From Parvularcula sp. (GTDB lineage: Bacteria > Pseudomonadota > Alphaproteobacteria > Caulobacterales > Parvularculaceae), in NCBI GenBank assembly GCA_002704915.1, contig PAIP01000006.1, forward strand, positions 1 to 53,276: 53,276 nucleotides of DNA, read 5' to 3'. Numbering within the stretch: the stretch's first letter is position 1; every line of letters starts with the position of its first letter. Of this stretch, positions 14,296 to 17,912 are shown piece after piece. A model generated the notes under the pieces. It made no database searches. It saw only the letters and a list, made by a program, of their open reading frames with translations, and was not told the DNA's origin. The position numbers and the translations under genes are program-made.

Positions 14296-14901
14296 CTAAA
14301 ACGCTCTTCGCGACTTCATCGCGGCGGCGAGCGTTCCCTCATCCAGATAGTCAAGCTCGCCACCGACCGGCACGCCTTGACTGAGCCGGGTGATGCTGAC
14401 GCCGGAACTTTCGAGATGTTCGGTGAGGTAATGCGCCGTGGTCTGACCGTCGACCGTGGCGGGGAGCGCCAGAATGATCTCGCTGATGAGCCCGTCCTTC
14501 GCCCGGGCGATGAGCGCGCCGAGATTGAGATCGTCAGGACCGATGCCGTCCAGCGGCGAAAGCAAGCCGCCGAGGACGTGATAGCGGCCTTTATGCGCTC
14601 CGGCGCGTTCCAGCGCCCAGAGATCACCCACATCCTGAACGACGCAGAGAACCGATGAATCGCGGTCAGTGTCGGCGCAGACGGCGCAGGGATCGATCGA
14701 ATCCCAGTTGCCGCAGACCGAACACGCTTTCACCTTGTTCGCCGCATCATCGAGGGCGAAGGCGAGCGGGCGCATCACCGGATCGCGTTTTTTCAGAAGA
14801 TAAAGCGCCGCGCGCTTGGCCGAGCGCGGCCCCAACCCCGGCATCTTGGCGAGGAGGTCAATCAAGCGCTGTAACTCGGGACCGATGGTTGCGGCGGGCA
14901 T
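14296..14901 (-). CDS. recR: recombination protein RecR
   Basis: RecR works with RecO and RecF to load RecA on gapped DNA. The 201-residue protein has the N-terminal helix-hairpin-helix region ([13 protein letters not shown] in similar form as [17 protein letters not shown]), the four-cysteine zinc motif [16 protein letters not shown], and a Toprim domain ([15 protein letters not shown]) ending in [15 protein letters not shown]. In most bacteria recR directly follows ybaB. Here an unrelated AT-rich gene on the opposite strand separates them. Confidence 0.97.
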
Positions 14902-14995: not shown

Positions 14996-15802
14996 ATGGG
15001 AGAAAAAAAACGCCGACTGACGCTCTCGAAGCAATTTATACGTGACAACCCGATCTGCTGTTACTGTGGGGCACCCTCAGAAACGGTCGACGAGATGCCG
15101 CCAAGAGCCATGTTCTTAGGTCGACAATGGCCAGAAGGGATGCAGTTTCCAGCATGCATCAAATGTAACAAAGGTCGGGGCGCAATCGACGCAATTGTGT
15201 CTCTGCATGTAAAGGGAGGTGAAGTGCGAGACGAATATCTCGACACTGAAGGTTTCAAGAAATTATGGCGCGACATCCATAAACGGTACCCCGACGCAAC
15301 CCCAAAGCTGGCCGAATCCCGTGAGGAACAACAAAAAGTTTGGGAGTCCGCAGGATTTCCTGCGGCGAGCAGATTGGTGTTGCCGAACTTAGCTTCAATG
15401 ATTTCATCCAAAAAAACTGTCGATCTTTTGCAGGTATTCCTGCTCCGTTTGCTACAGGCCATATATTATCGCGAACAAAGTGCCATCTTACCCTTAAACC
15501 ATCTTGCCTGCGTTTCATTTAGAACTAACGCAACCTTCATGAAAGCGGGCTCGTTCGACGATCTCGCAAGCACAATGGTGCAAGGCCTGCCTATGTCCCG
15601 CCCAACTAAGCGAGGCAATACCGACCTAACCGAGCAATTCCACTACCGGTGGGGCCGAATGCCGGACGAATCCGTATTTTGCTACTGCGCAAAATTCGGA
15701 ACTGCATTTGTTGCATTTGCATTTAGCGCGCCCGAAGAGTTTTTTTATCGTCACAGTTTAAAGCCGACGATAAAGATGGATGGTACCTTCATCCAAGCCT
15801 AA
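14996..15802 (+). CDS. HNH-endonuclease-like zinc protein in an AT-rich insertion
   Basis: A 268-residue protein whose first 60 residues hold two CxxC pairs (CCYCG near residue 22 and CIKCN near residue 54) around DEMPPRAMF. This is the pattern of a subset of HNH proteins that read EHVPPRAMF, but here the usual catalytic histidine position appears to be glutamate, so nuclease activity is doubtful. The remainder is not recognised. Base composition and codon choice are visibly more AT-rich than the neighbours, and the gene is read against recR and ybaB, overlapping the ybaB stop by 4 bases. This suggests horizontal acquisition into a conserved gene pair. A defence or mobile-element origin is possible but not shown. 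Confidence 0.6.
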   Translation: MGEKKRRLTLSKQFIRDNPICCYCGAPSETVDEMPPRAMFLGRQWPEGMQFPACIKCNKGRGAIDAIVSLHVKGGEVRDEYLDTEGFKKLWRDIHKRYPDATPKLAESREEQQKVWESAGFPAASRLVLPNLASMISSKKTVDLLQVFLLRLLQAIYYREQSAILPLNHLACVSFRTNATFMKAGSFDDLASTMVQGLPMSRPTKRGNTDLTEQFHYRWGRMPDESVFCYCAKFGTAFVAFAFSAPEEFFYRHSLKPTIKMDGTFIQA

Positions 15803-16119
15803 AACGGCAGCTTCATGCCCGGCGGCAGGGGCAGGCCCGCCGTCATTTTTTTCATCTGCTCTTCGGTTTCTTTTTCGAGCTTTGATTTCGCGTCGTTGAT
15901 CGCCGCGGCGATGAGGTCTTCGAGGATTTCGGCCTCGTCTTCCTTCATCAGCGAACGCTCGATGGCGACGGCCTTGGCGTAGCCCTTGCCGTTCAGCACC
16001 ACTTTCACCATGCCGGCGCCGGCCTCGCCCGTCGCCTCGATATCGGCGAGCTTTTCCTGCATCTCTTTCATCTTGGCCTGCATTTCGCCAGCCTGTTTCA
16101 TGATCTCGTTCAAATCCAT
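15799..16119 (-). CDS. ybaB: YbaB/EbfC nucleoid-associated protein
   Basis: A 106-residue DNA-binding protein of the YbaB/EbfC family, which forms tweezer-like dimers and coats the nucleoid. Visible signatures are MDLNEIMKQAGEMQAKMKEM, the VVLNGKGYAKAVAI strand and the end MTAGLPLPPGMKLPF. It is translationally coupled to dnaX, since the start overlaps the dnaX stop by one base, as in many bacteria. The expected next gene, recR, is displaced by the AT-rich HNH-like gene. Confidence 0.96.
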   Translation of the reverse strand: MDLNEIMKQAGEMQAKMKEMQEKLADIEATGEAGAGMVKVVLNGKGYAKAVAIERSLMKEDEAEILEDLIAAAINDAKSKLEKETEEQMKKMTAGLPLPPGMKLPF

Positions 16120-17912
16120 TATGCTTTTCCTGTCTCTTTCCGCGCCGCAACTGTCTCCGCGACAGCGTCGTCATCGGGGTCGATGGGCGCGTCTTCTTCC
16201 AATTCGTCCGGCGCGGGGGCGATCTCGTCCTGGGTGTCGCGGATTGCGGTGACCTTCGCATCCGGGAACAACTCCAGCGCTTTTTGCACCATGGGGTGCT
16301 CCATCACCTCGCGCGTCCTGACATCGCGCAGGGTGTCCTCCCCCTCATGCTCCGACGTCACCAACACGAGCCAGGCTTTTCCGGTCCACTCTTTCAGGCG
16401 TTGCGTCAGGCGGTTCGCAAGATCGCCGGGCGCATCGTCATGGAGCCGGAGTTCGATCCTGCCTTCGCGGAAGGACACCACATGAACGTAAGACTCGAGT
16501 TCGGTGCGCAGTTTCGCATCGCGCTTTTCGCCGGCGAGCCGCGCCACGTCGTTGAAGGAGCGCAGCCACACCTTCGCATCCGCCGGCCGCTGAGACATGG
16601 GCGGATGAATATCGATCACTTGCGCGGAAGGACGCTCCGACGCTGAGGCGTGAACAGGCGCGCGCTCGGATTGAGCCGCTGACGGCGATCCTACTCCGTC
16701 GCTACTACTCTTTTTTTTTAAGGCTTTGAGAGCTTCGTCGGGCGTCGGCAGGTCCGCCGCGAAGCAAAGGCGGATCAGCGCCATTTCGCCCGCCGCCGCC
16801 GCGTCCGGCGCCATTTGCGTTTCCGTGAGGCCCTTCATCAACAACGACCAGAGGCGGGTCAGCGCGTTCATTTCAAGCCCGTCGGCCATGGCCTTCGCCC
16901 GCTCCGCATCGGCCTCGCCCGCGGGACCGTGAGAGGCCGCTTCGGCGCCCGCCGCCTTGATCCGGGTCAGAAGATGGGTGAGGTCGAGAAGATCGCGCAA
17001 AATCTGCGCGGGCTCGGCGCCGGCATCATATTGCGAGCGGAAATTTTCGAGCGCCGTCTTCGCGTCGCCCTTCATCGCAGCTTCGAGCAGCGCCCAGACG
17101 GACGACCGGTCGGCGAGACCTAGCATGTCGCGGATCATCTCTGCACTGACGATATCGTCGCCCTGCGCCGCGTGCTGCACCATCGCCTGATCCAGGATCG
17201 ACAGCGCATCCCTGACGGAGCCCTCCGCCGCGCGCGCGATCATCCACAACCCGTCGCGGTCGACCTTGACGTTTTCTTTTTCAGCGATGGCGGCGAGGTG
17301 ATCGGTCAGCACTTCCGGATCGATGCGGCGCAAATCGAAACGCTGACAGCGAGACAGCACCGTCACCGGCAGTTTGCGGATCTCCGTCGTCGCAAAGATG
17401 AATTTCACATGGGGCGGCGGTTCTTCGAGCGTTTTGAGCAGCGCGTTGAACGCCGCCGTCGAGAGCATGTGGACTTCGTCGATGATGTAGACTTTGTAGC
17501 GCGCCTCGACCGGCGCATAGCGCACGCCCTCGATCAGTTCGCGAATGTCGCCGACCCCGGTGCGCGAGGCGGCGTCCATCTCCATCACATCCGGATGGCG
17601 GCTTTCGGCGATGGCGCGGCAGTGAAGCCCCTCCTCCGCCATATCGATCTGGGGACCGTTATCCTCGCCATTGGGGCCCACATAATTGAGGGCGCGGGCG
17701 AGAATGCGCGCTGTAGTGGTTTTCCCCACCCCGCGCACGCCGGTCAGGATATAGGCATGGGCGATGCGGTTCGCGGCGAAGGCGTTTTTCAGCGTCTTCA
17801 CCATGGGCCCGTGGCCGATCAGATCGTCGAAATTCTGCGGACGGTATTTGCGCGCGAGCACCTGATAGGCGCCGCCGCTCTTGCCCTGTTCCTTGTCCTG
17901 ATCCGCCATCAC
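16119..17912 (-). CDS. dnaX: DNA polymerase III clamp-loader subunit tau (and predicted gamma)
   Basis: DnaX drives loading of the sliding clamp, and tau also couples polymerase to helicase. The 597-residue product has Walker A GVRGVGKTT (58-66), Walker B IIDEVHML (143-150) and the SRC motif (187-189) in AAA+ domains I-III, then a linker and a C-terminal tau domain. As is common in alphaproteobacteria, only one cysteine remains in the region of the zinc module (GLHCRAI). Codons 398-401 read TTA AAA AAA AAG AGT, containing an E. coli-type slippery heptamer. A -1 shift gives Glu then TAG, ending a 402-residue gamma-like form after domain III. The gene is followed by ybaB and preceded by the 4.5S RNA gene. 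Two adjacent ATGs make the start uncertain by one codon. Confidence 0.96.
   Translation of the reverse strand: MMADQDKEQGKSGGAYQVLARKYRPQNFDDLIGHGPMVKTLKNAFAANRIAHAYILTGVRGVGKTTTARILARALNYVGPNGEDNGPQIDMAEEGLHCRAIAESRHPDVMEMDAASRTGVGDIRELIEGVRYAPVEARYKVYIIDEVHMLSTAAFNALLKTLEEPPPHVKFIFATTEIRKLPVTVLSRCQRFDLRRIDPEVLTDHLAAIAEKENVKVDRDGLWMIARAAEGSVRDALSILDQAMVQHAAQGDDIVSAEMIRDMLGLADRSSVWALLEAAMKGDAKTALENFRSQYDAGAEPAQILRDLLDLTHLLTRIKAAGAEAASHGPAGEADAERAKAMADGLEMNALTRLWSLLMKGLTETQMAPDAAAAGEMALIRLCFAADLPTPDEALKALKKKSSSDGVGSPSAAQSERAPVHASASERPSAQVIDIHPPMSQRPADAKVWLRSFNDVARLAGEKRDAKLRTELESYVHVVSFREGRIELRLHDDAPGDLANRLTQRLKEWTGKAWLVLVTSEHEGEDTLRDVRTREVMEHPMVQKALELFPDAKVTAIRDTQDEIAPAPDELEEDAPIDPDDDAVAETVAARKETGKA
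16681..16721 (-). other. putative programmed -1 frameshift site in dnaX
   Basis: On the coding (reverse) strand the sequence is TTAAAAAAAAAGAGTAGTAG: nine A residues then G, in frame TTA AAA AAA AAG AGT AGT. It contains A AAA AAG, the heptamer used by E. coli dnaX. After a -1 slip the next codons are GAG TAG, so the short product ends in Glu, exactly as in E. coli gamma. A small hairpin (GACGG at 16700-16696 with CCGTC at 16685-16681) starts 9 bases downstream. No convincing upstream Shine-Dalgarno stimulator is visible. The nine-A run could also allow transcriptional slippage, as in Thermus dnaX. Confidence 0.6.

Follow-up and report, generated by a model that had tools for sequence, protein, structure and literature searches.

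The dnaX locus

The window (the whole 53,276 nt stretch of Parvularcula sp. DNA that was analyzed) carries a dnaX gene on its minus strand, and the features of this gene and of the site studied here are collected in Table 1. The length given for the product is counted from the first GTG, and the actual start may sit a few codons later. Pfam matches on the window DnaX follow the order ATPase and lid domains, PF12169 (domain III) and PF12362. The adjoining gene is ybaB (15799-16119), and recR (14296-14901) is found nearby. Between recR and ybaB, on the opposite strand, is an ORF of 268 aa (14996-15802, plus strand) that has two CxxC-type pairs, gave no Pfam match at E ≤ 0.01, and may have entered the dnaX-ybaB-recR cluster by insertion. 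A small SRP RNA (Rfam RF00169; 18043-18141, minus strand) is located just upstream of dnaX.

Table 1. Features of dnaX and of its A-run site in the window.
Feature	Position	Strand	Remarks
dnaX, tau	16119..17912	minus	NF006585 equivalog, 795 bits; 597 aa from first GTG
DnaX domain III (PF12169)	16719..17150	minus	residues 255-398; last codon, 398, is Leu and supplies the first A of the run
Tau C-terminal domain (PF12362)	16242..16565	minus	residues 450-557; missing from the predicted short product
A9 run	16711..16719	minus	last base of TTA (398), AAA (399), AAA (400), AA of AAG (401)
A_AAA_AAG heptamer (E. coli-type shift site), in slippery phase	16710..16716	minus	AAG in the window species alone of the genus
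TAG, -1 frame	16705..16707	minus	also reached with one added A; predicted product 402 aa, ending LKKKE
TAG, +1 frame	16691..16693	minus	reached with one A lost; predicted product 406 aa

Where domain III ends, the sequence of the coding strand is TTA AAA AAA AAG AGT AGT AGC GAC GGA GTA GGA, and given the extent of the PF12169 match, the end of the domain coincides exactly with the run of nine A (A9). Read from codon 401, the -1 frame gives AAA GAG TAG, i.e., a stop after two codons, while the +1 frame reaches a stop after six. The preliminary description of this DNA had pointed to the TTA AAA AAA AAG AGT sequence at codons 398-402 with A_AAA_AAG in the slippery phase, to a -1 slip into GAG TAG that would end a 402-residue product in Glu right after domain III, and to the likeness of this arrangement to that of E. 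coli; all of these were confirmed, the short product being a predicted one. The +1-frame stop at 16691-16693, for which the genus likewise retains an equivalent, had not been mentioned in that description.

Runs of at least nine A are scarce in the 4.5 Mb genome (85 contigs), with eight in total, that of dnaX included. The other seven are distributed over contigs C2, C19, C36 (two), C57, C68 and C78 of the genome (G000; runs L065 and L068-L073), and six of them lie inside open frames that are 100 codons or longer, where they are translated as successive lysine codons. Because of these further runs, A9 by itself is not decisive.

Conservation of the run within the genus

The nearest named relatives of the window's genome are Marinicaulis/Hyphococcus, including Marinicaulis flavus SY-3-19 (L061). 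The genus is Hyphococcus in NCBI and is placed in the Parvularculaceae, Alphaproteobacteria. A search of 62 genomes of this family provided dnaX from 56 of them, made up of 26 of the 28 genomes of the genus and 30 of the 34 from eight other genera. The genus genomes G005 and G018 gave no dnaX match, one of the other genera (g8) yielded none, and two additional fragments from G027 were left out of the set.

The A9 run is conserved in the genus far beyond synonymous expectation. Exactly nine A are present in all 26 genus dnaX genes, in the pattern YTA AAA AAA AAN, where codon 398 is TTA in 20 cases and CTA in six, and codon 401 is AAT in 14, AAC in 11 and AAG in one, that of the window. The DNA identity of these genes outside the linker is 68–93% (median 74%), so that descent alone is unlikely to have preserved the run. 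When the amino acids of each species were fixed and the codons were redrawn from that species' own usage (2000 draws, phylogeny ignored), A9 appeared in a mean of 0.6 and a maximum of 4 of the 26 genes, against the 26 observed. On the genus tree, the 271 columns in which a degenerate amino acid is invariant show a median of six third-base changes, and the third base is unchanged in only five of them, which are residues 20, 22, 398, 399 and 400. Among the 34 invariant leucine columns, a single third base throughout is found at 398 only, and leucine codons ending in A make up 7.4% of the leucine codons in genus dnaX, even with the 398 site counted.

In the 30 dnaX genes from the other genera of the family, no run of seven or more A or T was found in the frame read. 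The gene L034 (genus g9), which lacks the run and has a long branch, is placed inside the genus on unstarred tree branches, so either a loss of the run or a misplacement in the tree is possible. The preliminary description had held that a programmed site would be refuted if close relatives used AAG/AGA synonyms or no longer had the -1 stop. Within the genus neither was seen, whereas the other genera of the family, with their 30 genes devoid of any A run of seven or more, do present this picture.

Stop codons in the other two frames

A stop codon follows the run within three codons in the -1 frame of all 26 genus genes, and within 15 codons in the +1 frame of 25, a +1 threshold that was picked after the data had been seen. 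The exception is L030, in which the +1 stop comes only after 28 codons. Under a null in which the amino acids and codon 401 were fixed and the remainder was drawn from linker codons (1000 draws, phylogeny ignored), the corresponding counts were a mean of 10.1 and a maximum of 16 for the -1 frame, and a mean of 8.8 and a maximum of 17 for the +1 frame. With each gene's own codon usage (2000 draws, phylogeny again ignored) the maxima were 13 and 12, respectively. The mean log distance to the +1 stop, which requires no threshold, was below all 1000 null draws.

Counting from positions further downstream changed these numbers. From 5 codons on, -1 stops were found in 5 and +1 stops in 25 of the 26 genes, the latter count being maintained because the +1 stops are mostly 5-15 codons on, and from 10-30 codons on they dropped to 0-3 and 8-11 of 26. 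The fall in the counts with shifted starts indicates that the -1 stops belong with the run proper, and the +1 stops with the short stretch of codons after it. Many different sequences provide these stops, with 21 different 21-base strings among the 26 genes, and on the genus tree at least 8 changes of identity or position are counted for the -1 stop and at least 15 for the +1 stop, a stop being retained throughout. As judged from these sequences, the conserved unit is the length-nine A run together with stops in both other frames, which is the signature of Thermus dnaX.

Comparison with the E. coli frameshift element

The window species and E. coli dnaX (RF00382) share the gene and the region within it, the A_AAA_AAG AGT sequence, and a -1 GAG stop that gives a product ending in Glu. 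E. coli K-12 reads gca aaa aag agt gaa, and has agggagc upstream. The E. coli gene, however, has a run of only six A, a Shine-Dalgarno-like sequence (the agggagc) and an element that is scored by Rfam, whereas in the window there are nine A, no RF00382 match, and an AAG codon that is not conserved. The RF00382 covariance model gave no match at E ≤ 10 between positions 16550 and 16850 of the window, while the E. coli K-12 control scored 96.8 bits. The 26 nt that precede the run of the window dnaX contain none of the motifs GAGG, AGGA, GGAG and AGGG. In 16 of the 26 genus genes (the window's is not among them) a GAGG precedes the run by 13 nt, and Shine-Dalgarno-like 4-mers are found at the equivalent place also in 14 of the 30 genes that lack the run.

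The five-base-pair hairpin that had been described 9 bases downstream of the site (GACGG/CCGTC with a 10-base loop, beginning 9 bases past AAG) does form in the minimum-energy fold predicted for the 65 downstream bases, but the stability of this fold is ordinary (z = 0.35), and the linkers of relatives differ. Across the 26 genus genes the mean z relative to mononucleotide shuffles is -0.29, with a range of -3.35 to 1.48, and the stable downstream fold at the lower end is that of L006. A hairpin acting as a conserved stimulator is not supported by these folds, which are ordinary on average, or by Rfam, which gave no match, and the E. coli heptamer was rejected as the conserved unit, AAG being present in 1 of the 26 genes.

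The preliminary description had interpreted the site as one where DnaX is truncated in a programmed manner, right after domain III, by E. coli-style -1 frameshifting. The first part of this interpretation is supported; the second is not, in view of the rarity of AAG, the missing RF00382 match and the missing Shine-Dalgarno-like 4-mer. The alignment of related dnaX genes that it had proposed gives the same division, with the A run and the -1 stop beyond synonymous expectation (26 of 26 each) and the AAG codon confined to a single gene. Of the features that distinguish known dnaX systems, the -1 stop directly after the site, as in E. coli, is present throughout the genus. The Thermus-type features are likewise present, namely a coding-strand run of nine or more A and nearby stops in both non-zero frames. 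The reversed, two-ORF layout, with gamma in frame and tau produced by a shift, is absent, as tau is encoded in the window by a single frame of 597 aa.

Proposed mechanism and alternatives

The strictly conserved A9 run and its off-frame stops very probably allow a second, short protein to be produced from dnaX by slippage. We consider it probable that A9 at the boundary between domain III and the linker is a selected slippage site that would provide a gamma-like DnaX beside tau, most likely by way of RNA polymerase slippage. A Thermus-like transcriptional slippage had been the last option listed in the preliminary description and is now the favored one. What can be read directly from the genus genes is the invariant A9, the stops kept in both frames, the position at the edge of a domain, and a conservation greater than synonymous codon choice would produce.

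In this mechanism RNA polymerase would slip on the A9 run, as it does in Thermus thermophilus dnaX. Transcripts with nine A (or 9 + 3n) would be translated into full-length tau, those with one extra A would end at the near -1-frame stop, and in those short of one A translation would continue for a few more codons, to the +1-frame stop. With stops in both off frames, each out-of-frame transcript would encode domains I-III, the clamp-loader ATPase, but lack the C-terminal domain of tau. Two-way slippage of the polymerase predicts a run of about nine A and stops in both frames, with no stem or fixed last codon, and this is the pattern seen. Nine is also the run length at which selection against slippage is described as becoming evident in a large share of genomes (PMC1088944). 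We infer from the sequences the occurrence of slippage, its transcriptional rather than ribosomal nature, the gamma:tau ratio and the function.

Ribosomal -1 frameshifting of the E. coli kind is a rather unlikely alternative, in which tRNA-Lys would slip on A_AAA_AAA (in all genes) or A_AAA_AAG (in the window) and translation would end at the near -1 stop to give gamma. The -1 stop is indeed the nearest and the most strictly kept, and in the window species the E. coli heptamer is complete, AGT comes next, the -1 frame gives GAG and a stop, and the predicted fold includes a 5-bp hairpin. In addition, A_AAA_AAA (codons 399-400) is itself invariant, so a -1 slippage of ribosomes there would keep most of the same bases. 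The other 25 genus genes, however, have A_AAA_AAC or A_AAA_AAT instead of A_AAA_AAG, the window lacks both a Shine-Dalgarno-like 4-mer before the run and an RF00382 match, and the downstream folds are on average no stabler than shuffles. Such frameshifting also leaves unexplained the kept +1 stops and the constancy at nine A where seven would suffice.

The tRNA complement does not separate the mechanisms. There were 48 tRNA matches in the genome, of which 46 could be typed, the other two being contig-end fragments; tRNA-Lys(UUU) was found twice and tRNA-Lys(CUU) was absent among those typed. In a review it is suggested that the presence of two tRNA-Lys may favor polymerase slippage in Thermus (PMC5009743), and as tRNA-Lys(UUU) is the only tRNA-Lys typed here, as in E. 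coli, this suggestion is inapplicable. The observation is neutral to slightly in favor of the ribosomal route.

A point against a polymerase-specific reading is that a +1 stop is expected from any two-way slippage. The stops in both frames would also be accounted for if ribosomes, needing no classical heptamer, slid backwards and forwards over the successive AAA codons and both sets of stops caught the strays. Ribosomes of E. coli are described as sliding on homopolymeric A and ending at out-of-frame stops (PMC4363877), but in the same report, in purified translation with E. coli components (not the ribosomes of this genus), robust truncation was obtained with A11 and little truncated product with A9 or A10, which speaks against plain ribosome sliding, an explanation that we consider highly improbable.

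Scarcely credible is the absence of any programmed event, with the run being either a lysine-rich segment or a fortuitous string of A that has simply been inherited, and any short DnaX arising from proteolysis like that which makes gamma1 and gamma2 in Caulobacter through ClpXP (PMC5422525): the lysine residues are conserved as well as their codons, and A9 is present in other genes of the genome, but selection on amino acids does not fix AAA over AAG, leucine codons ending in A, or off-frame stops. Two further candidates were rejected: chance or shared descent as the source of the run, on the synonymous and stop nulls, the turnover of stops on the tree and the third-base invariance, and a protein-level need for the lysines alone, on the conservation of the codons and of the off-frame stops.

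Returning to slippage at A9, the fact that genes sharing as little as 68% DNA identity have retained the run, and a stop in each of the other frames, argues that the short form is under selection in the genus, where it would be made before or during translation and not by ClpXP alone. A synonymous change from AAA to AAG should abolish the short form and leave tau untouched. The need of bacteria for a short DnaX is described as long controversial (PMC5009743).

Comparison with other dnaX systems

Slippage in dnaX is already known from Thermus, from E. coli and from the GeneTack set, while the documented alphaproteobacterial route to a short form is that of Caulobacter, via ClpXP. The window dnaX would represent a known kind of slippage in a group that has another solution on record. 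Among the top-ranked titles and abstract openings of a literature search that had subscription journals, preprints and supplements outside its scope, no report of a slippage site in an alphaproteobacterial dnaX was found, and the GeneTack supplement may name some.

The dnaX gene of Thermus, a bacterium of hot springs, undergoes transcriptional slippage at an A run (PMC1088944, PMC5009743), and that of Thermus thermophilus is described as having nine sense-strand A, tau in one frame, close stops in both other frames and a gamma product, an arrangement shared by the window, where the gamma product is predicted. The two differ in the position of the run, which is two-thirds of the way through the gene and exactly at the domain III boundary in the window, and seven-eighths through the coding sequence in Thermus (PMC1088944). 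They also belong to different phyla, and slippage has been demonstrated experimentally in Thermus, whereas in the window it is a prediction.

A cluster of 17 two-ORF dnaX genes was reported by GeneTack, with three species named (a Chloroherpeton and two Chlorobium), in which a poly-A tract, mostly A10, is found at a -1 frame transition and tau needs the shift (PMC3711429). All 15 genes read from the alphaproteobacterial family f9 (see below) have this layout, and the GeneTack cluster may include members of f9. The window and its genus are different in having tau in a single frame.

In Caulobacter, gamma-like forms of DnaX are produced by partial proteolysis via ClpXP (PMC5422525), and C. crescentus is said to be without a frameshifting site (PMC7566177). 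Caulobacter and the window's genus are both Alphaproteobacteria with gamma-like forms from one gene (predicted in the case of the genus), the Caulobacter route being post-translational. They are presumably members of the same order in GTDB, and provide a natural comparison between related bacteria. Glycine-rich tracts may matter for the stopping of ClpXP on DnaX. Counted over 25 residues starting where domain III ends, the mean number of glycines is 2.1 in the genus, 4.6 in the other genera of the family (n = 30) and 6.25 in the order (n = 24). The word glycine has no occurrence in PMC5422525 or PMC7566177, so a connection between these counts and ClpXP is a lead only.

Occurrence in other Alphaproteobacteria

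In a sample of 134 genomes of the class, 133 had a domain III match, and the junction, defined as the stretch reaching from 30 nt upstream to 150 nt downstream of the domain III end, was read in 110 of these; the junctions of the window and of G037, also among the 133, were read separately. These 110 junctions (19.4 kb) contain 13 runs of at least nine A, in 12 genomes, versus one such run in 127 kb from elsewhere in the same loci, a comparison sequence 6.6 times as long as the junctions. Runs of seven or eight A are not enriched (3 at the junctions vs 21 in the other sequence), and no run of nine or more was found at 98 of the 110 junctions read.

Genes were also read in the families f42 (33 genomes searched, 31 matched, 30 read), f9 (17, 15 and 15) and f98 (16, 14 and 14), and in the first two, A9 or A10 was present in every gene read (30/30 and 15/15). 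The f42 genes (L268-L297) have A9 in 24 cases and A10 in six, near the end of domain III. Many of the class genomes are richer in AT, which makes chance runs and stops commoner in them, and a matched null applies to f42 only: there, stops in both frames within five codons are found in 30/30 genes, against a null mean of 7.1 and maximum of 15 in 500 draws (6.9 and 12 with a repeat seed). Several f42 genes show a second A9-A10 run deeper in the linker. In f9 (L253-L267), the 15 genes have A9 or A10 with an in-frame stop 1-3 codons on, and the -1 frame is open for 64-186 codons; the tau domain PF12362 was found in this frame in all four of the 15 genes tested. In f98 the run is A9 in 6 of 14 genes, and so appears to come and go in that family.

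Programmed slippage at A9 or A10 runs bordering domain III of DnaX might be a recurrent, perhaps old, alphaproteobacterial route to gamma that has both polarities, with either gamma or tau as the slippage product, and has been gained and lost many times, slippage (as in the window's genus) and proteolysis (as in Caulobacter) being interchangeable within the wider group to which Caulobacter belongs; we put this forward tentatively, as an idea that is plausible but somewhat doubtful. The recurrence in the class may be a larger point than the window's own gene, and the finding of the same length-nine-to-ten signature in other families of the class suggests that gamma is made more widely than a search aimed at the E. 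coli element would reveal.

In two further genes, L191 (G174) and L201 (G132), dnaX is seemingly split into two frames past domain III, at AAAAAGGGGG and near CCCCCA, with no pure A run, and either a programmed event or a sequencing error could be responsible. Among 24 dnaX genes from four other families of the order, an A10 run was found only in L055 (G042). It lies 43 nt beyond the junction, the two other frames reach stops after 0 and 1 codons, and this gene is possibly a further case of slippage within the order.
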